Shown: piece after piece, positions 1,681 to 10,994 of the stretch
How positions within the stretch are numbered: position 1 is the first letter of the stretch
Layout: each line of letters starts with the position of its first letter
Assembly: GCA_945787785.1 (NCBI GenBank)
Contig: CALZIO010000020.1
Span: 1 to 44,638, forward strand
From: an uncultured Chromatiaceae bacterium
Lineage (GTDB): Bacteria > Pseudomonadota > Gammaproteobacteria > Tenderiales > Tenderiaceae
Reading direction: 5' to 3'
Length of the DNA: 44,638 nucleotides
The notes under the pieces: model-generated
Databases searched by the model: none
Seen by the model: the letters and a program-made list of their open reading frames with translations, nothing else
What the model was told of the DNA's origin: nothing
Made by a program: the position numbers and the translations under genes

Positions 1681-4650
1681 CTAAATTGCCACCAGCGTAT
1701 GTTGCTCAACGCCGTTATCCAAGGCAAAGTTGGCGCGGTCGATAATTTCCTGGCGCATCTGCGGACTCAAGGTAACAAAGTAAGCCGAGTAACCGGCCAC
1801 ACGTATCATCAGATCCTTGTAAGGCGCCAAGGCCTGCAGCTCTGCCTCACCCGCATCTGATTGTGCCGCTGCTGTTGCAGCCTTGTCGGCGGCGATCAGA
1901 TCATCAATGGCTGAGACACACAGCTGCACCAATACGCCGTCATTATCCATAAAGGCCTTCATGTAACGGGCAAACAATTCGGTATCTTCGGGGAAGAACT
2001 CCTGATCACGGGTGGTTAGGCTCAGATTATAGGTATAACCATTCTGCACCGTGTCACCTTCCACTTCGGCTACCGAGAGGATGTGGTCCAGCGCCATGAC
2101 CGGATCTCCATTACGCTTCACCACGCCAGGACACGGTGTGATACCACTGGCGAAGGGTTCACGCGCTTTGCGGCCATTGGGCGTAGCCTTGGTCAACATG
2201 CCAAACCCGGCATGATTGGTCATGCTCCAGTAGCCAGGCAGATAACGGCCACCGCGGTGGGTGCGGTATTTGTAGAACACTTCCTGGATCAGGCGTGTGA
2301 TGAGATGAGTATAATGCACCGCGAGACTGTTATCATAGAGTCCACCAGGTGTTTGATCGACCCCGGCACCATATTTTGGCGCCAGATGAATCATGTGTTT
2401 GATCTCTTTCATTCGCCCTGCTGATAAGTCGGGTAACTGACTGGACTCTGCGCTGGCACCAAACAGCCTGCGCAGACTATTGAGCATGGCCACCAGCGGG
2501 TTGGGCTGCTGTTTGGGTGTTAAGCCGGATTCATCAAAATCCGCGTCAAGCGCTGCCAACAGTTCCTGCGCCGACATCTTGCCACCAAACACCAGCTCAT
2601 CAATGACACAGAATGAATCAATCACATCCGCCACGCCGATGATGGCAACACCGGATGAATTGTACTTGGCACCACCGGCAGTCAGGTCACGAAACACCGC
2701 CCCTTCACCGCGCGGCAGATTGGTTGGCCCGGTGAAGATACCGGACAGAAACGGCACCTGACGCATTTTTTCCATCGCCCGGCCGAGATAGTTGTTGCAT
2801 TGCGCGGTATGTTGCGCCATTTCATCGAGCTGGTATTTGAAGGCATCGATAAACTCTTGCATTGAACTCATCTCGGCCAGTGGTTTGGTGGTGTAGTTCG
2901 TATGTTCATGGAAAAGATTGGGATTATCCTTGCCAACGCCATCACTGCGATGTTTACCGCCGAATAGGGCCAGCTCCAGCACCGCCGGCAACACCAACAA
3001 GGTCGAGCCGGTATTGCCATAGTGCTTGCCGGCTGAATTCTGTTCTATACAGCCGATGGATGCGTAGTCGTAGGCATCGGCAAGCGCCTCTGCTTCACTG
3101 ATTCCGGTATGAGCTGCGTAATACTTCGCCATGGAATGCACCACTGGCGCATCACCGTGAATGGCTGGTGTCGCCTTGGTGAGAATATTGACCTGACTGA
3201 CCCGTTTCAGATAGGGATCATAGAAACCATCAGGCAACGGGGTGCCCTGCGCATCGCGGTGATGCACCTCTTTATGATAACGGGCATGTACATTAGGATC
3301 GCGGATACCGAGAATTTCGGTTGCCTTGAGGGTGATATAAGTCATGTCATTGACCGCATCCACCACCTCACCGTTTTCATATTTGGTGCCGCCGACGGTA
3401 AGGGCTTGATTGGAGCCGCTGCCTGCAAACAGGGTCTCCGAACCTTCTGTCGAGAGTGGCACATGATCAGAGCAACGCAGGAAAAAGTGGCTCACCATTT
3501 CAACTGCCCGCTCAACATAGGCATCACGTTCAGCATCATTCGATAGCTGTTGCCAATCGCTCAAATAGTAGTCATTCAACAGTTGATCCAAACGGCCAAT
3601 AGAAAAACCGAAATTGGTGTTTTCCTGCAATAACAAGTGATAACAGATCCAGATGGTGGTGAGCGCCTCATGCAGGGTCTCGGCCGGTTGTGCCGGCACC
3701 TTGCTACAGATGCGTGCCAGTTCGGTATTGCCACTTGCTTGTGCCGCCTCAGCCAGATGTTGGGCGTAGGTCTTGGCCCCCTCGAAAACGCTAATCACGC
3801 CTTCAAGAAACTCTTGCTGTTCAACATCATGCATAGCGTTATTGGCAAGATCTGCCTGCGCTTGCGTAATCAAACCATCAAAGCCATATTTCAACACCCG
3901 CTCAAAATCGGGCACGGTATGGGAGACACAGGTGGCTTTATCAGATAGATAGAAGGCGACCCGCTCCATCAATTCCAGCGCCTTGGGGGTTTCGCCGGCG
4001 CGGCTGATTAAGGCGGGATCAATTGAGTCTCCCTCGACCCGATCGCGGTTAGGATGTTGCTCGCTATCGTAATCGCTGTAACGCGCCACCTCTTGCGCCG
4101 GGCGACGCTCGAGCCAGTAGGGAAATATCTCCTTGTTTAAGCGCTCTGCCACCTCGGGCCGGATCCTGAATGGGTTTTGCGCCCGGCTAGTCACTGTCTT
4201 CAATTCCGGCCAGATGCAATAGCCGATCGTGTCCATATAGACTACCGGGCCAACGAAGCTAGTGGTGGTCTGACCGGGTAGCAGATCGGTATTGCGCACC
4301 AGTGGTGTCTTATTCACAAAGACATGGTGCAAGGCCTTGGCGCGGCGGGTATAAGGCGACATCGCTTGCGCTTCAGGCGTGCGCAGAAATTCAGTGAGCA
4401 AGCGCGGTAATTCATCACAGATCTCGGGCAGGCCTTCGGGCGCAAACAATTTATCGCGCCAAGCCTTTACAACCGGATACTGTTCCAGGCCGATATGACT
4501 CAAGGCCAGGTCTTTGAGTGTCTTGATCCGCTGTGGTATTTCATTCGGGATCGGGAAGGTGCGCGTCTTACCCCGCTCAGGGCGCAGAATGTGTGTCTCT
4601 TCGGTAAGACTGACACGCATACTCCCAGTGTGCAGTCCAGGTTTATTCAT
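1681..4650 (-). CDS. Glycyl radical enzyme, long atypical member (PFL/dehydratase superfamily)
   Basis: At 989 residues this is clearly longer than the usual 760-870 of pyruvate formate-lyase, diol dehydratase, choline lyase and benzylsuccinate synthase. The thiyl cysteine is C534 in ASIGCIEQ, followed by GKHYGNTG; the Cys-x-Glu arrangement (C534, E536) is that of the eliminating and decarboxylating enzymes, not the Cys-Cys of PFL. The glycyl radical loop is RVAGYSAYF with G953. Extra length lies near residues 700-760 and in an Ala-rich stretch (about 918-942) just before the radical loop. An AAGGGG ribosome site lies 7 bases upstream of the ATG. It is expected to be oxygen-sensitive and cytoplasmic, and to need the activase at 16-1023. 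The substrate is unknown; I find no basis for naming a known subfamily. Confidence 0.93.
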   Translation of the reverse strand: MNKPGLHTGSMRVSLTEETHILRPERGKTRTFPIPNEIPQRIKTLKDLALSHIGLEQYPVVKAWRDKLFAPEGLPEICDELPRLLTEFLRTPEAQAMSPYTRRAKALHHVFVNKTPLVRNTDLLPGQTTTSFVGPVVYMDTIGYCIWPELKTVTSRAQNPFRIRPEVAERLNKEIFPYWLERRPAQEVARYSDYDSEQHPNRDRVEGDSIDPALISRAGETPKALELMERVAFYLSDKATCVSHTVPDFERVLKYGFDGLITQAQADLANNAMHDVEQQEFLEGVISVFEGAKTYAQHLAEAAQASGNTELARICSKVPAQPAETLHEALTTIWICYHLLLQENTNFGFSIGRLDQLLNDYYLSDWQQLSNDAERDAYVERAVEMVSHFFLRCSDHVPLSTEGSETLFAGSGSNQALTVGGTKYENGEVVDAVNDMTYITLKATEILGIRDPNVHARYHKEVHHRDAQGTPLPDGFYDPYLKRVSQVNILTKATPAIHGDAPVVHSMAKYYAAHTGISEAEALADAYDYASIGCIEQNSAGKHYGNTGSTLLVLPAVLELALFGGKHRSDGVGKDNPNLFHEHTNYTTKPLAEMSSMQEFIDAFKYQLDEMAQHTAQCNNYLGRAMEKMRQVPFLSGIFTGPTNLPRGEGAVFRDLTAGGAKYNSSGVAIIGVADVIDSFCVIDELVFGGKMSAQELLAALDADFDESGLTPKQQPNPLVAMLNSLRRLFGASAESSQLPDLSAGRMKEIKHMIHLAPKYGAGVDQTPGGLYDNSLAVHYTHLITRLIQEVFYKYRTHRGGRYLPGYWSMTNHAGFGMLTKATPNGRKAREPFASGITPCPGVVKRNGDPVMALDHILSVAEVEGDTVQNGYTYNLSLTTRDQEFFPEDTELFARYMKAFMDNDGVLVQLCVSAIDDLIAADKAATAAAQSDAGEAELQALAPYKDLMIRVAGYSAYFVTLSPQMRQEIIDRANFALDNGVEQHTLVAI

Positions 4651-4746: not shown

Positions 4747-7185
4747 CTAGTCCAAAGTATCCAACTTGATAGCCTGGCGATGACGTTCCCAGTCGTCGTC
4801 AAGCATTAGGAAATATCCAAATAACTGGTATTTATATTCACTTGCCGCAACGCCGGAGTGGAAAGGCACATCCAAAGCCGTGGAGTAGATCAGCTGACCG
4901 AGGTAAAGGCCATCCGCGATCTGCACCAACTCATCCAAACAATAACCGATCGGCACCGGTCCACCGATGAGCGGAAAACGGTAATGAAACTGGAATACGC
5001 GCTTGCTGCCTTGATCACCACTATTCATTGGCAGGATGGATTCCTGATCGGCAACACCGAGAAAACAGTAGCCCTGGCGGGCAAACGGCGAACCACTGGC
5101 CTCTGAAGCTTGTTGCAAACGCTTTTCCGGTACCCGGTAGTTCATGTCCGCGATCTTCATCAAGGCATCCGCAACACGAATGCGCTTGTCTTGCAGATTG
5201 TAGCCCATTACCCAGCGCTCGCCGGCCTCTTTAATCCAAAAGACTTTGTCTTCATCACTCATACCCTGGTCCCAACTGCCGCTGGCTAAATGCTCAGCAT
5301 AGCGGCCAGGCCGTTGCCAATAATTCAGTTGATTATTCTTTACCAGTGCGTAATGCGGTGCACTGGCCAGATGGCGCTTTAATTCATGCACACGCTGAGG
5401 ATAACGCTCGGCCAAGTCACTTCCTTCATCCAGCAACATACTCAACTTACGCGGACTGATCATCTCAAACGATTTACCCGCCCAGGGGAAAATATATTTG
5501 CCGATACTGTGCCAGACCATGTTCATCACATTTGGACCACGCGCCTCTTCTCCGGATAATGTGTTAGACAACACGCCGGGAATTAGGGCGACATCCAAAT
5601 CGCCAGCATCTCGGTCCGGGCAAAAGGTTTCACTGAAGCCCCAATGTAGATTCAGGGTTGCTCCGTGGTAATAATCAAAGCCATGGCTCACCTCTTTTTC
5701 ACCATACCAATCGTGCTCTTCCTCACCATTGAGACGGAGATTGAATCCTTTTGACCCTGAGCCTTGGAACAAGCCATTTTGCACTCTGGGAGCAACACCA
5801 CTGCGAAACAGGCTATGCAGCTGTTCAAAGTGTTTCAGGTGGTCTTCGTGTTTGGTTTGCGCCGAAATATCATGACTAATGCGCTGCAACATTTGTAATA
5901 CTGACTCATCCTCGCGCAGCATCGCTTTCACATCACCATCATCAGCGCGCGTAGAGGGCTCGGTGATTAACGTGGTAAATTTTTCAGTCAACGCTTCATC
6001 ATCACGCCAGCCATTGACCCAGTCATGCCCGGTATGCGTGGCTGCAACAACAGGGGCAGCATCATAACCAAGCTCTTCGTAACCAATCTCACCTGCACGT
6101 GGCCGCAGTTGGGGAAAGGCGTTGTCAGCATAAACCTGCTTTGCGTAGGCTGGGTCCAGCATTAAAAAGAAGCCATTGTTCTGATAGCCGTAATCAGGCC
6201 CGCTACTATTGGTTTGGCCATGCAATAGACGCTTGATTGACTCGAAAATAGTGTGTTTATACGGTTCGTAAGGCTCGCCCAACTCAATGTCATGATCGCC
6301 CGGAAAGAAAGGCAAATCGATGCTACCCAGACTATAATGTTTAGTGGCATAAACCAGTTGGCCTAGATAAATGCCTTCGCCAATCTGGACTAATTCATCA
6401 ACCAACCGGGTCATAGGATAAGCCGGGCTAAGCTTGGGCCAGCGGTAATTGAGTTGGTATACCTGCTTGCCATTCATTTCTGGCACTACCGATTTACCCA
6501 TCTGGGCAAGATAGATTCCGCCAGTCTTGTTGTAGGGAATGGCCTTTTCTTTAACCAGGTTGGCCGTTAACAACTCAGCTTCGAATCCTTCTGCATCTTT
6601 GGACATGGGCCGGTCTTGCAGCTGCCAGATCTGCTCCAATACGGGCAATGCTATTTCCTGTAGCTGGCTGGAATCATTCGGCTCACGGAAAAAATTACGC
6701 CCGATACGGCTAGTTGCCGAATCATAGGCCGCCATTAATTCAGGATCACCGTCACACTTTGTCCTGAATACCTCCTCAGTAACCGGCTCAAAGGTTTTGC
6801 CCATCCACAGGCCTGTGTCTGCAAACGTGGCGTTCCAGGCAGTCGCTAACAGCTCGATTTTTACCAATAATGAGCGGTTATCACCAAATAATCGTGCCGT
6901 ATCCTGAAAATAATCGCTGTCGCGGATCGCAACTGGTATCCCGATCATGGGTCCATCAAGCGGCACTGCCTTGCCACACTTGAATAGCACACTCAATTTT
7001 TCATGTATCTGCGGCCAAAGCTCGCGTTGATGATTATCTGCCAGAATACGCTGGTACTTTGCCAGCATGGTGTATAGGCTATCATCACAGTCAGTCTTTA
7101 AGATGGCCCGCAAATTCGATCTGAGCGCTGTTTTCTCCTCGTCGGAGCAATCAGGAAAATTGTTACTACTAAGCATCATGTCCAT
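4747..7185 (-). CDS. Unrecognised 812-residue protein with internal duplication
   Basis: I do not recognise this family. No signal peptide, membrane segment or metal motif stands out, so it is probably cytoplasmic. It contains two diverged copies of a module. Each copy has W-x-G-K-[TS]-F-E (WMGKTFE at 127-133, WAGKSFE at 568-574) and later a block with aromatic strands, DELVQI, G-[IL]-YLGQL and G-[FY]-FLMLD (about 222-346 and 703-797). The two DELVQI blocks start at 263 and 751. The centre (about 465-520) has a Gly/Asn-rich GLFQGSGSKGFNLRLNG and YYHGATLNLHWGF. The spaced beta-like strands recall ligand-binding barrel proteins, but that is only an impression. It precedes the glycyl radical enzyme by 96 bp on the same strand. 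The G-run near 7190 sits only 2 bases before the first ATG, so M3 (7179) may be the true start. Confidence 0.85.
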   Translation of the reverse strand: MDMMLSSNNFPDCSDEEKTALRSNLRAILKTDCDDSLYTMLAKYQRILADNHQRELWPQIHEKLSVLFKCGKAVPLDGPMIGIPVAIRDSDYFQDTARLFGDNRSLLVKIELLATAWNATFADTGLWMGKTFEPVTEEVFRTKCDGDPELMAAYDSATSRIGRNFFREPNDSSQLQEIALPVLEQIWQLQDRPMSKDAEGFEAELLTANLVKEKAIPYNKTGGIYLAQMGKSVVPEMNGKQVYQLNYRWPKLSPAYPMTRLVDELVQIGEGIYLGQLVYATKHYSLGSIDLPFFPGDHDIELGEPYEPYKHTIFESIKRLLHGQTNSSGPDYGYQNNGFFLMLDPAYAKQVYADNAFPQLRPRAGEIGYEELGYDAAPVVAATHTGHDWVNGWRDDEALTEKFTTLITEPSTRADDGDVKAMLREDESVLQMLQRISHDISAQTKHEDHLKHFEQLHSLFRSGVAPRVQNGLFQGSGSKGFNLRLNGEEEHDWYGEKEVSHGFDYYHGATLNLHWGFSETFCPDRDAGDLDVALIPGVLSNTLSGEEARGPNVMNMVWHSIGKYIFPWAGKSFEMISPRKLSMLLDEGSDLAERYPQRVHELKRHLASAPHYALVKNNQLNYWQRPGRYAEHLASGSWDQGMSDEDKVFWIKEAGERWVMGYNLQDKRIRVADALMKIADMNYRVPEKRLQQASEASGSPFARQGYCFLGVADQESILPMNSGDQGSKRVFQFHYRFPLIGGPVPIGYCLDELVQIADGLYLGQLIYSTALDVPFHSGVAASEYKYQLFGYFLMLDDDWERHRQAIKLDTLD

Positions 7186-7442: not shown

Positions 7443-8138
7443 ATGCGAATATTGATCATTGAAGACGATTTAGACTTGGCTGCCAATCTATATGATTATC
7501 TAGAAACCAAAGGACACCAGGCCGAGACCGCTGGCGACGGTGTCACAGGATTGCATCTGGCCGTCAGCAAGAACTACGATGTCATCATACTGGACATCAA
7601 CTTGCCAGGCATGGATGGTCTAACCGTCTGTAGTAAACTCCGACAGGAAGCTGGGAAGCAAACCCCCGTATTATTACTCACGGCCAAGGACACCCTCAAT
7701 GATAAGCTGTCTGGTTTTGCCAGTGGCGGCGATGACTATCTGGTCAAACCCTTTGCCCTGCAGGAACTGTTAGCCCGCCTAACGGCGCTCAGCAAGCGGC
7801 AACAGAGCAACCAAGTCGATTCGGTTTTGCAAGTCGCAGATTTGACATTCAATACCAAGACACTTGAGATTAATCGTGCCGATAAGCATATTCACCTCAC
7901 TCCCACCGGACTTAAAATTCTCGAACTGTTAATGCGCAATTCACCCAACGTCGTTACACGACAACAAATTGAAGAGACTCTCTGGCATAACTCGCCACCA
8001 GACAGCGATGCCCTTCGTGTCCACATGCACTCTCTGCGCAACCTGATTGATCGGCCCTTCAATCAACCATTAATCCAGACCTTACACGGTATCGGTTTTA
8101 AAATAATCTCCCCCACTGAGATAGGCAATGGGAATTAG
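7443..8138 (+). CDS. OmpR/PhoB-family response regulator
   Basis: A 231-residue regulator with an N-terminal receiver domain (acidic pocket IIEDDLD near residues 5-11, phosphoacceptor D51 in VIILDINLPGMDG, switch Thr in LLLTAKD, conserved lysine in YLVKPF) and a C-terminal winged-helix DNA-binding domain (about 130-225, LTPTGLKILELLM... and ...HSLRNLIDRPF). The overall form is like the QseB/PmrA/TctD group. Its stop overlaps the start of the sensor kinase gene by 11 bases, so the two form a coupled pair. It is transcribed away from the glycyl radical enzyme cluster across a shared 257-bp region, which makes that cluster a plausible target; no operator repeat was identified to prove it. Confidence 0.93.
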   Translation: MRILIIEDDLDLAANLYDYLETKGHQAETAGDGVTGLHLAVSKNYDVIILDINLPGMDGLTVCSKLRQEAGKQTPVLLLTAKDTLNDKLSGFASGGDDYLVKPFALQELLARLTALSKRQQSNQVDSVLQVADLTFNTKTLEINRADKHIHLTPTGLKILELLMRNSPNVVTRQQIEETLWHNSPPDSDALRVHMHSLRNLIDRPFNQPLIQTLHGIGFKIISPTEIGNGN

Positions 8139-9414
8139 GCACGGTCTACGTCACCGCATCACCTTTTTTTTTGTTCTATTTGGAACGCTATTGAGTGGCA
8201 TTATTACCGTTGGCGTTTATTTAGCGGTTGAGGATATCGAAAAAAAAATGCTGCAGGATACTCTGCGATTAGAACTTGATTATTTTCTCAACAAACCGGA
8301 CAAATCACCCGGCACCTATGAGCAGATAAGTGCAGATAGCATCCTCTATTTTGTTAATGAGGAGCAAAAGCTGATTGTACCTGACATGATTCGCGATCTT
8401 GGCGATGGTTCCCACGAAGTCTTGTATGAGCATCATGTGGCTTATCACGTTCTAATTACCAGCATCGAAGACGGCACTATCTATCTGATAAAAAATGCCA
8501 CCACTTTCGAGCGGCGTGAAGTCACCATCCACTTAGCACTCATCACCTCAGTTGTGGTGGCGATACTGACTTCGTTATGGTTAGGAATCTGGCTCTCAGG
8601 CAAAGTAATAACGCCGGTAAAAGCATTAGCAAAGCAAGTCGCCCTGCTAAACCCTGGCACCAAAGCCTCATTCAGAATTGCACCTCAATATGCTAGCGAT
8701 GAAGTCGGTCAACTCGCCGCCATATTTGATTCCTATCAGCACAAGATGGAGCGATTTATCCAGCGCGAACAGGAATTCACGGCGGATGCCAGCCATGAAT
8801 TACGCACCCCACTGACGGTAATAAATGGTGCCACGGAATTGCTTCTCGACAATCCTGACCTAACTGATGTTGCCAGACGCCAGATACAACGTATTGAACG
8901 CGCCGGTGAACGCATGTCACAGATGCTGGAAATCCTATTGCTGCTAGCCCGCGAAGCCAGCTATTCGGATGACACTGAGCTTGAACTCTGCCTGGTTGAT
9001 AATATTGTTCGCGATGTGATTGAACAACATCGCTTTATGCTGCATGGCAAACCAGTCACCATGCACATGGAAACCGCATCCGGCTTTAGCCTGCCACTTT
9101 CTAAAACAGCACTGGCCATCGTGCTCAGCAATCTGATTCGCAATGCAATAAACTACACCGACCAGGGCGAGGTGGTTGTGAAGGTGGCTGATAAAAAGAT
9201 TGAGGTATGTGACACGGGTATGGGCATCGCCGCAGAAGAACTGGAATCAATCTTTGAACGCAATTACCGTGGCAATAATATCAATAAAGCGGGTAGCGGA
9301 ATTGGGCTTTCCATCGTCAAACGAATCTGTGACCGGCATAACTGGGATCTCAAGATTCACAGTGAGGCGGGAAAAGGAACAACCGTTACGCTTCAATTTT
9401 ATAAAATAGTTTAA
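8128..9414 (+). CDS. Membrane sensor histidine kinase
   Basis: A 428-residue kinase with transmembrane segments at about 11-33 and 134-157 enclosing a short periplasmic sensor of about 100 residues, then HAMP (about 158-210), dimerisation/phosphoacceptor domain with H223 in ASHELRTPLTV, and an ATPase domain with N box (LSNLIRNAINYT), G1 (VCDTGMGI) and G2 (GSGIGLSIVKRI). All catalytic motifs are intact. It is the cognate kinase of the overlapping OmpR-type regulator. The periplasmic domain contains no cysteine pair or recognisable ligand fold, so the signal cannot be read from the sequence. Confidence 0.93.
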   Translation: MGIRHGLRHRITFFFVLFGTLLSGIITVGVYLAVEDIEKKMLQDTLRLELDYFLNKPDKSPGTYEQISADSILYFVNEEQKLIVPDMIRDLGDGSHEVLYEHHVAYHVLITSIEDGTIYLIKNATTFERREVTIHLALITSVVVAILTSLWLGIWLSGKVITPVKALAKQVALLNPGTKASFRIAPQYASDEVGQLAAIFDSYQHKMERFIQREQEFTADASHELRTPLTVINGATELLLDNPDLTDVARRQIQRIERAGERMSQMLEILLLLAREASYSDDTELELCLVDNIVRDVIEQHRFMLHGKPVTMHMETASGFSLPLSKTALAIVLSNLIRNAINYTDQGEVVVKVADKKIEVCDTGMGIAAEELESIFERNYRGNNINKAGSGIGLSIVKRICDRHNWDLKIHSEAGKGTTVTLQFYKIV

Positions 9415-9724: not shown

Positions 9725-10096
9725 ATGAACCAGGAAACTCAAACCGCTACTTTCAATGGCGAAAATCTATACCGTGAAGAGAGCTTCACTGACCGTACTG
9801 TCGGCACACTACGCCGCATGACGCCAGTCGACAAAGAAGGCAACATCGATAACAGCCGTGCAGTAGTCTACGTTGGTCAAACCCAGGTAATGACAGCCAT
9901 GGGGGCCCTGCCACTCAGCTTCGAGTTGCAGGCCGATAATTTAGCGGACGCCATTGCCGGCTTCTCTGATGGCGCCAAAGTAGCGTTTGAAGACGCCATG
10001 AAAGAATTGGAAGAGTTACGCCGCGAACAGGCTTCATCTATCGTAATGCCAGGCGCGGGCGGCGACCTGCCAGGTGGAGGGAAAATACAACTTTGA
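9725..10096 (+). CDS. Conserved small cytoplasmic protein of unknown function
   Basis: A 123-residue acidic protein without signal peptide or membrane segment. The N-terminal two thirds are beta-rich (ESFTDRTVGTLRRMTPV, VVYVGQTQVMTAMGALPLSF), followed by a helix (about 83-105, DAIAGFSDGAKVAFEDAMKE) and a flexible Gly-rich tail. The pattern resembles short proteins usually annotated only as cytoplasmic protein in proteobacteria. An ACAGGTG ribosome site precedes the ATG closely. It stands alone, downstream of the MITE-like element and convergent with the PEP-CTERM gene. I cannot assign a function. Confidence 0.8.
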   Translation: MNQETQTATFNGENLYREESFTDRTVGTLRRMTPVDKEGNIDNSRAVVYVGQTQVMTAMGALPLSFELQADNLADAIAGFSDGAKVAFEDAMKELEELRREQASSIVMPGAGGDLPGGGKIQL

Positions 10097-10187: not shown

Positions 10188-10958
10188 TTAGAACAGCTTC
10201 AGTCGGCGCTTCGCTACCCTCAATAGAGCCAGACCTACGAACATCAGCGCCACCGTGCCTGGTTCTGGCACGTTGTTATTGGTTAGTCTTGATTGATCAT
10301 TATTTGATGATGCAAATAGCAATCCGTCCAGATAGAACTCTTCGGATGCACCACTAACGCCACCTGCATAAGCTTGATCCCCGTGAACAATCATGAAACT
10401 GCTGATTGCATCTTTTGTTGTAAAACCAATAAAGGGGATTGGAGAAGTTGTATAAATCGCAGAAAGAGTACCGGATGCTGTAGAAGAATTAGTTAGTCCT
10501 AATATATCGCTAACTAAAAAATAAGACCCATCTACCAACAGGCCGATTTCTACAAGATTCAAACCCGTCGTTGAACCAATAGTGTCATCCTGCAAATTCA
10601 ACAGACCAAACCCCGTAAATGGCGAGTGACCCAAGCGAACATTCAATCCATCCTCGTCACCTACCAGGCTCGAATCAACTTCACTTTCGAAAAAACCAGT
10701 GCCAGTTAGCCCCGTAGGACCGGTATCACCCACCCCGCCGATCAGTTCGACAGAGACTGAGCCCGCATCATTTCCTGTTGAAAATGAGCTAAAACTTGAG
10801 GCAGCACCATCAAATGTCTCTACAGTCACGGTTGAACCACTCAGTGCGGATTCCCAGTCGCCACGGTCTGTGTACGTTGAAATTACGGTGGCTTTTGCAG
10901 CCCCCATAAAAGCAGTAGCCAAACCTGCAACCAGGCAGAACGCTCTAAAATACATCAT
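10188..10958 (-). CDS. PEP-CTERM sorting domain protein (exported)
   Basis: A secreted protein of 256 residues. It has a signal peptide (hydrophobic core followed by GAAKA), a beta-rich body with many Ser, Thr, Gly and Asp residues and no cysteine in the mature part, and a classic PEP-CTERM tail: NNVPEPGTVALMFVGLALL followed by a basic end (RVAKRRLKLF). In this family the tail is cut by an exosortase and the protein is delivered to the surface, often with exopolysaccharide. The body matches no enzyme I know. The ATG at 10958 is preferred over the in-frame TTG three bases upstream because of AGGAAG spacing. No exosortase is in the window. A sigma-54-like site lies upstream. Confidence 0.9.
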   Translation of the reverse strand: MMYFRAFCLVAGLATAFMGAAKATVISTYTDRGDWESALSGSTVTVETFDGAASSFSSFSTGNDAGSVSVELIGGVGDTGPTGLTGTGFFESEVDSSLVGDEDGLNVRLGHSPFTGFGLLNLQDDTIGSTTGLNLVEIGLLVDGSYFLVSDILGLTNSSTASGTLSAIYTTSPIPFIGFTTKDAISSFMIVHGDQAYAGGVSGASEEFYLDGLLFASSNNDQSRLTNNNVPEPGTVALMFVGLALLRVAKRRLKLF

Positions 10959-10994
10959 CAACTTCCTACTTCTTTATTATTGTGCCAGTTAACA

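Follow-up and report, generated by a model that had tools for sequence, protein, structure and literature searches.

UNK812, a duplicated protein of a nameless family, is linked to glycyl radical enzymes and SCP2-fold proteins across several bacterial phyla

Introduction

The described glycyl radical enzyme (GRE) clusters that come closest to the locus reported here are those of glycerol/diol dehydratase, choline TMA-lyase and (alkyl)benzylsuccinate synthase, which combine a PFL-like GRE carrying a Cys-x-Glu motif and an RVxGYSA glycyl loop with an adjoining dedicated radical SAM activase and an accessory protein. To our knowledge, GREs of known function act mostly on small water-soluble molecules or on hydrocarbons that are added to fumarate. 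A second point of comparison is provided by UbiJ and UbiT, SCP2 proteins that assist enzymes whose substrates are hydrophobic quinone intermediates; UbiJ binds these intermediates, and UbiT has the matching job in an oxygen-independent pathway (PMC6747719).

The stretch of DNA analysed here, called the window, comprises 44,638 nucleotides from an uncultured Chromatiaceae bacterium and holds a gene cluster that resembles each of these systems in part. Its GRE, motifs and adjoining activase are those of the known GRE clusters, but no curated GRE model reaches its cut-off, and the GRE is accompanied by an SCP2-fold protein and by UNK812, two proteins not known as GRE partners. With ubiquinone synthesis, where UbiT works with the oxygen-independent UbiUV, the cluster shares an SCP2-fold helper for enzymes on hydrophobic substrates, but here the partners of that helper are a GRE and UNK812. 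The literature searched contains no paper linking a GRE to SCP2 and nothing on GREs in Nitrosomonas or Methylomonas; as subscription journals and preprints were thinly covered, a prior description is possible.

Results

UNK812 consists of two copies of one module

UNK812 is encoded by a minus-strand open reading frame (Table 1), the plus strand across the same positions being rich in stop codons. The original prediction had described a large protein built from two diverged copies of one module, and both BLASTP and profile–profile alignment of the halves confirm this, with WMGKTFE at residue 127 and WAGKSFE at 568, DELVQI at 263 and 751, and FLMLD at 340 and 792. BLASTP aligned residues 217-344 with 700-796 (E 8e-14), and profile–profile alignment with 54 relatives aligned 35-347 with 427-799 (E 4.6e-18), so that the duplication is nearly full-length and includes the helical N-terminal parts. 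The first copy comprises a helical part followed by W127-x-G129-K130-x-x-E133 (in the second copy W568-x-G570-K571-x-x-E574), Y247-R248 (Y735-R736), D263-E264 (D751-E752), L274-GQL (L762-GQL), Y334-Q335 (Y786-Q787) and F340-L341 (F792-L793).

Many of these positions are invariant in both halves, including G125/G562, W127/W568, G129/G570, K130/K571, E133/E574, K240/K728, Q244/Q732, Y247-R248/Y735-R736, D263-E264/D751-E752, LGQL at 274 and 762, and Y334-Q335/Y786-Q787, among others. Across the well-aligned part, the same residue is at least 95% conserved in both halves in 27 of 112 column pairs, whereas 2000 shuffled pairings averaged 2.3 and never exceeded 9. This pairing of invariant residues indicates that both copies have apparently retained an equivalent site.

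Table 1. Features of the UNK812 locus in the window
Feature	Position	Strand	Size or residues	Basis or remark
Radical SAM activase of GRE	16–1023	minus		TIGR02494, 280.9 bits vs cut-off 174; contig ends just beyond
SCP2-fold lipid-carrier-like protein	1026–1667	minus	213 aa	start codon ATGCATGCAG at 1667; predicted fold and weak PF02036
Glycyl radical enzyme (GRE)	1681–4650	minus	989 aa	PF02901 E 5e-101; 96 bases downstream of UNK812
UNK812	4747–7185	minus	812 aa	ORF, ATG start; family without a name
UNK812, second module copy	4789–5907	minus	residues 427–799	profile–profile alignment of halves, shared invariant residues
UNK812, first module copy	6145–7083	minus	residues 35–347	profile–profile alignment of halves, shared invariant residues
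Response regulator and kinase	7443–9414	plus
Protein without family match	9725–10096	plus	123 aa
Protein with PEP-CTERM-like tail	10188–10961	minus		tail VPEPGTVALMFVGLALL

UNK812 matches no described family

The absence of a recognisable domain in UNK812, noted from its sequence at the outset, held up against the databases: neither UNK812 nor 54 family members matched Pfam, NCBIfam, PHROGs or PDB sequences (the strongest stray hit, to Pfam, had E 0.014), and profile searches assigned it to no characterised family. Profile searches for PDB sequence relatives found none for UNK812, the SCP2-like protein or DUF6765, a protein often encoded in the cluster. An AlphaFold model from 54 sequences, an alignment of low diversity (profile Neff about 2-3), has a mean pLDDT of 81 and a pTM of 0.55, and each half is modelled as helical in its N-terminal part and rich in strands thereafter. 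With the whole model as query, Foldseek returned no significant relative in the PDB (best E 0.63) or among viral proteins (best E 0.16), ligand-binding barrels of the lipocalin/calycin kind included; small barrels (LgBiT, BcnA, FHbp, viral avidin) recur as weak matches at E 2-4.

The highest 19-residue hydropathy mean is 1.13, no segment is long enough for a membrane span, and the predicted pI is an acidic 5.2; UNK812 is predicted to be a soluble, cytosolic protein. Conservation across phyla is about 60%, and numerous Asp, Glu, Lys, Arg and His positions are invariant. Only C749 of its seven cysteines is invariant across the family, C70 being nearly so. A role as an Fe-S small subunit of the kind found with benzylsuccinate synthase or hydroxyphenylacetate decarboxylase is not supported, UNK812 having no conserved set of cysteines that could ligate a cluster. 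By eye, UNK812 also shares with GXWXG-DUF4334 proteins (PF14231/PF14232) the motif order W-x-GK-x-F/Y, V-x-x-x-x-Y-x-x-x-P-x-x-(D/R) and YFFL, but their profiles align over nine residues only, at a probability below 1%. Homology to these proteins was rejected: hhalign, run with 6 family members, gave probabilities of 0.8% and 0.7%, with the likeness confined to the W-x-GK-x-F block and a GLFQG-like stretch, and no Pfam match in any of the 54 members at E up to 1 placed UNK812 in PF14231 or PF14232.

UNK812 is rare and widely scattered

A search of 84,980 species genomes identified 70 relatives of UNK812 at 52-76% identity. The hosts include Nitrosomonas, Methylomonas, Crenothrix, Methylobacter, Gallionella, Sedimenticola and uncultured Chromatiaceae and Ectothiorhodospiraceae, together with Desulfobulbaceae, Desulfocapsaceae, Desulfobacteraceae, Myxococcota and Acidobacteriota. 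Nitrosomonas oligotropha, N. aestuarii and several Methylomonas are cultured, oxygen-dependent hosts, and strict anaerobes are also represented. UNK812 is rare within each group: it was found in 2 of 399 genomes of the window's phylum with a single sequence as query, and in the same 2 with a profile, and in 4 of 11 genomes of the window's taxonomic family, the genomes being mostly metagenome assemblies in which absences are soft. Viral contigs and plasmids yielded no relatives.

Two of the loci carry altered genes. In one complete genome (G102, locus L002, about 1495-1700) a single in-frame TGA lies near residue 57 of an otherwise intact UNK812 relative, and the GRE, SCP2-like and activase genes still adjoin it. 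In an uncultured Desulfobacterium (L067:9950-13731) UNK812 is interrupted by a segment of about 1.3 kb, probably an insertion element, in which the opposite strand carries a 455-aa ORF.

UNK812 is linked to a GRE and its activase

Read along the minus strand of the window, UNK812 is followed by the GRE, the SCP2-fold protein and the activase, after which the contig ends. The GRE has a PFL-like domain, a catalytic Cys in the Cys-x-Glu motif GCIEQ (C534), the glycyl loop RVAGYSA (G953) and an adjoining TIGR02494 activase. As GC[IV]E and RV[AS]GYSA are kept in every cluster GRE that covers those positions, Cys-x-Glu type chemistry is expected. In the PDB the window GRE comes closest to glycerol/diol dehydratases and choline lyases, a glycerol dehydratase being nearest at low identity, and it scores below every curated equivalog cut-off. 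Aligned to 1R8W, whose His164, His281, Ser282 and Asp447 we take to be the glycerol-binding residues, the window GRE keeps His164 and has F347, G348 and G548 in place of the other three, so that glycerol dehydration is unlikely. On the equivalog cut-offs and these three replacements, identity as a glycerol/diol dehydratase is not supported.

That UNK812 is tied to the GRE ahead of which it stands, as proposed from the window, is strongly upheld across genomes. Flanks of 6 kb or more on each side of UNK812 were available for 37 loci, among which 32 encode a GRE nearby, 30 an SCP2-like protein, 29 an activase and 26 DUF6765. In 33 loci UNK812 immediately precedes a GRE of the same orientation, and in 12 the two share a strand but are some kilobases apart; elsewhere order and strands vary. 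Presence and absence run parallel in the window's family, where UNK812 and the GRE occur together in 4 of 11 genomes and are both missing from the other seven. No linked GRE was found at L018, L034, L061 and L067, some loci having no GRE within 6-10 kb, and in Desulfosediminicola the nearest GRE-like gene is far from UNK812. A GRE is encoded elsewhere in the genome in 15 of 17 further UNK812 genomes, most of which have none beside UNK812. This genome-level co-occurrence is strong evidence for the window-like GRE type and weak evidence for sulfate reducers, where it says little because GREs are common.

Two Desulfobacterium genomes (G411, with L161, and G410, with L162) contain many GRE matches (17-20 match rows); several form a tandem array on a single contig and most resemble the short GRE type of the cluster. 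A selenocysteine reading of the TGA in Desulfobacterium GREs was rejected; the TGA is an ordinary stop codon.

The regulator pair on the other side of UNK812 had been drawn into the same function, a tie that did not survive comparison: the regulators accompany UNK812 in no genus but that of the window, and even within it G406 carries a different gene at their position. The 123-aa protein encoded beyond them has a relative in G406 that adjoins UNK812 even though the regulators are absent. A protein with a PEP-CTERM-like tail, as in the window, also occurs in the G102 locus, upstream of UNK812.

Partners with an SCP2 fold, DUF6765 and a lipase-like gene

The AlphaFold model of the SCP2-like protein (pLDDT 76.5) finds UbiJ first with Foldseek (E 3e-3, probability 1.00, TM 0.68 by target) and also sterol carrier proteins. 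Its best 39 PDB matches are all SCP2-domain proteins or alkylsulfatases, and alkylsulfatases carry an SCP2-like domain. PF02036 stays under its cut-off in the relatives (E 0.0027 as the best of 12 members; 17.0 bits vs 21.3 in another), and a profile–profile alignment to SCP2 proteins, though weak, runs colinearly for about 104 columns. At the level of its predicted fold, the protein is an SCP2 protein.

DUF6765, present in many of the long-flank loci, is encoded on another contig in the window's genome. Its standing as an obligatory partner is weakened, as it is found in two genomes of the window's family without UNK812 and is missing from two with UNK812, the latter assemblies being incomplete. 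Its near-invariant residues are H6, D35, H79, H135, D139, H143, H197 and D205, a His/Asp set that suggests a putative metal site resembling the one in zinc phospholipase C; sequence searches found no relative of solved structure, and the literature searched had nothing relevant on it.

A lipase-like gene adjoins UNK812 in Methylomonas and in one Desulfobulbaceae locus. The order in five Methylomonas loci (L043, L045, L046, L047 and L075) is GRE, SCP2-like protein, activase, DUF6765, lipase-like protein and UNK812, with an AMP-ligase-like gene just upstream in four of the five.

One UNK812 family is joined to two GRE/SCP2 pairs

The cluster GREs fall into two types, the window type of about 990 aa and a shorter one of about 820 aa. 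Mean identity within these two types and between them contrasts strongly among the cluster proteins: 71.0 and 68.2 within vs 35.8 between for the GRE, 58.4 and 53.5 vs 16.2 for the SCP2-like protein, 61.1 and 54.6 vs 42.1 for the activase, 58.4 and 55.9 vs 50.8 for DUF6765, and 62.8 and 64.5 vs 59.9 for UNK812. On a quick UNK812 tree with SH-aLRT support only, GRE type changes three times, and at least two of these changes are forced by well-supported branches. The identity contrast and the forced partner changes indicate that UNK812 is the constant part of the cluster and has been joined repeatedly to different GRE/SCP2 pairs. Across several phyla, then, UNK812 is a duplicated protein with paired conservation that is linked to a GRE and an SCP2 protein and has exchanged these partners.

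Discussion

The reading that we tentatively favour places UNK812, as the best-conserved accessory component, in an undescribed oxygen-independent GRE pathway acting on a hydrophobic, lipid-like substrate; within this pathway, we infer, UNK812 is a soluble protein with two lobes that binds the hydrophobic substrate or product of the radical reaction or hands it over. A hydrophobic substrate is suggested by the SCP2 fold and by the lipase in some loci, and the SCP2-fold protein in the cluster makes plausible a carrier or accessory role for UNK812, as the original prediction had entertained. In such a pathway the activase would install the glycyl radical on the GRE, the SCP2 protein would hold the substrate by its hydrophobic part and present it, and the GRE would carry out a Cys-x-Glu type radical elimination or rearrangement near the polar head group. 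UNK812 would take or offer the polar end of the substrate or product at two equivalent sites (the K/E/R/DE sets), each half combining a helical part with a beta-barrel-like part for the same kind of ligand, and DUF6765 and the lipase, where present, may make or release the substrate. The constancy of UNK812 across GRE types speaks against adaptation to the surface of a single GRE and favours a function directed at a substrate or product that the types share. Some hosts of the cluster use menaquinone, so that ubiquinone itself is an unlikely substrate.

An enzymatic role in the same pathway is nearly as likely as the carrier or hand-over role, and it is quite possible that UNK812 acts on the GRE product or makes the GRE substrate, by two active lobes or by one site between them. 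The conservation of UNK812 across phyla and its many invariant charged residues exceed what is usual for a plain carrier and fit an enzyme as well; its conservation between strongly differing GREs would be expected of a shared next or previous step, and its distance from the GRE in 12 loci and lack of linkage elsewhere are compatible with a separate catalyst. However, no enzyme family was matched by sequence or fold, there is no metal or Fe-S motif and only one invariant Cys, and the recurrence of the same residues in both halves would be unusual for a duplicated catalytic domain unless both are active.

It is unlikely that UNK812 instead serves the GRE itself as an assembly, protection or activation factor, for example against oxygen in Nitrosomonas and methanotrophs. 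Its place directly upstream of the GRE in 33 loci and the oxygen-dependent bacteria among its hosts would suit such a factor, but strict anaerobes, in which protection would be needless, also have UNK812, and proteins about 60% identical accompany GRE families that are 36% identical, with at least two partner changes, which makes tight co-evolution with a GRE surface unlikely. Mere co-inheritance of UNK812 and the GRE as parts of separate processes is less probable again: loci without a GRE within 6-10 kb and the variable gene order point that way, but a GRE lies near in 32 of 37 long-flank loci across several phyla even though order and orientation vary, and presence and absence are parallel within one family. 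Modification of hopanoids, sterol-like lipids whose polyol tail would suit a diol-dehydratase-like GRE and an SCP2 carrier, is refuted as a general explanation, since just 5 of the 20 host genomes tested encode a squalene-hopene cyclase.

Returning to the favoured reading of an accessory component in a lipid-directed GRE pathway, its broader meaning may be stated at similarly guarded strength. UNK812 could found a new family of two-lobed ligand-binding proteins or enzymes that, together with an SCP2 carrier and either of two unrelated GREs, forms an undescribed oxygen-independent radical pathway for a lipid class common to oxygen-dependent ammonia and methane oxidisers and to sulfate reducers. 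With its lipid-carrier-like subunit, a GRE cluster of this kind would broaden radical enzymology to include substrates of the lipid type, and UNK812, with relatives in 70 species genomes, is its most constant part and yet belongs to a nameless family. The presence of the cluster in Nitrosomonas oligotropha, N. aestuarii and Methylomonas suggests a micro-oxic or anoxic metabolism that is undescribed for these organisms in the literature searched, and the cultured host strains make the pathway testable.
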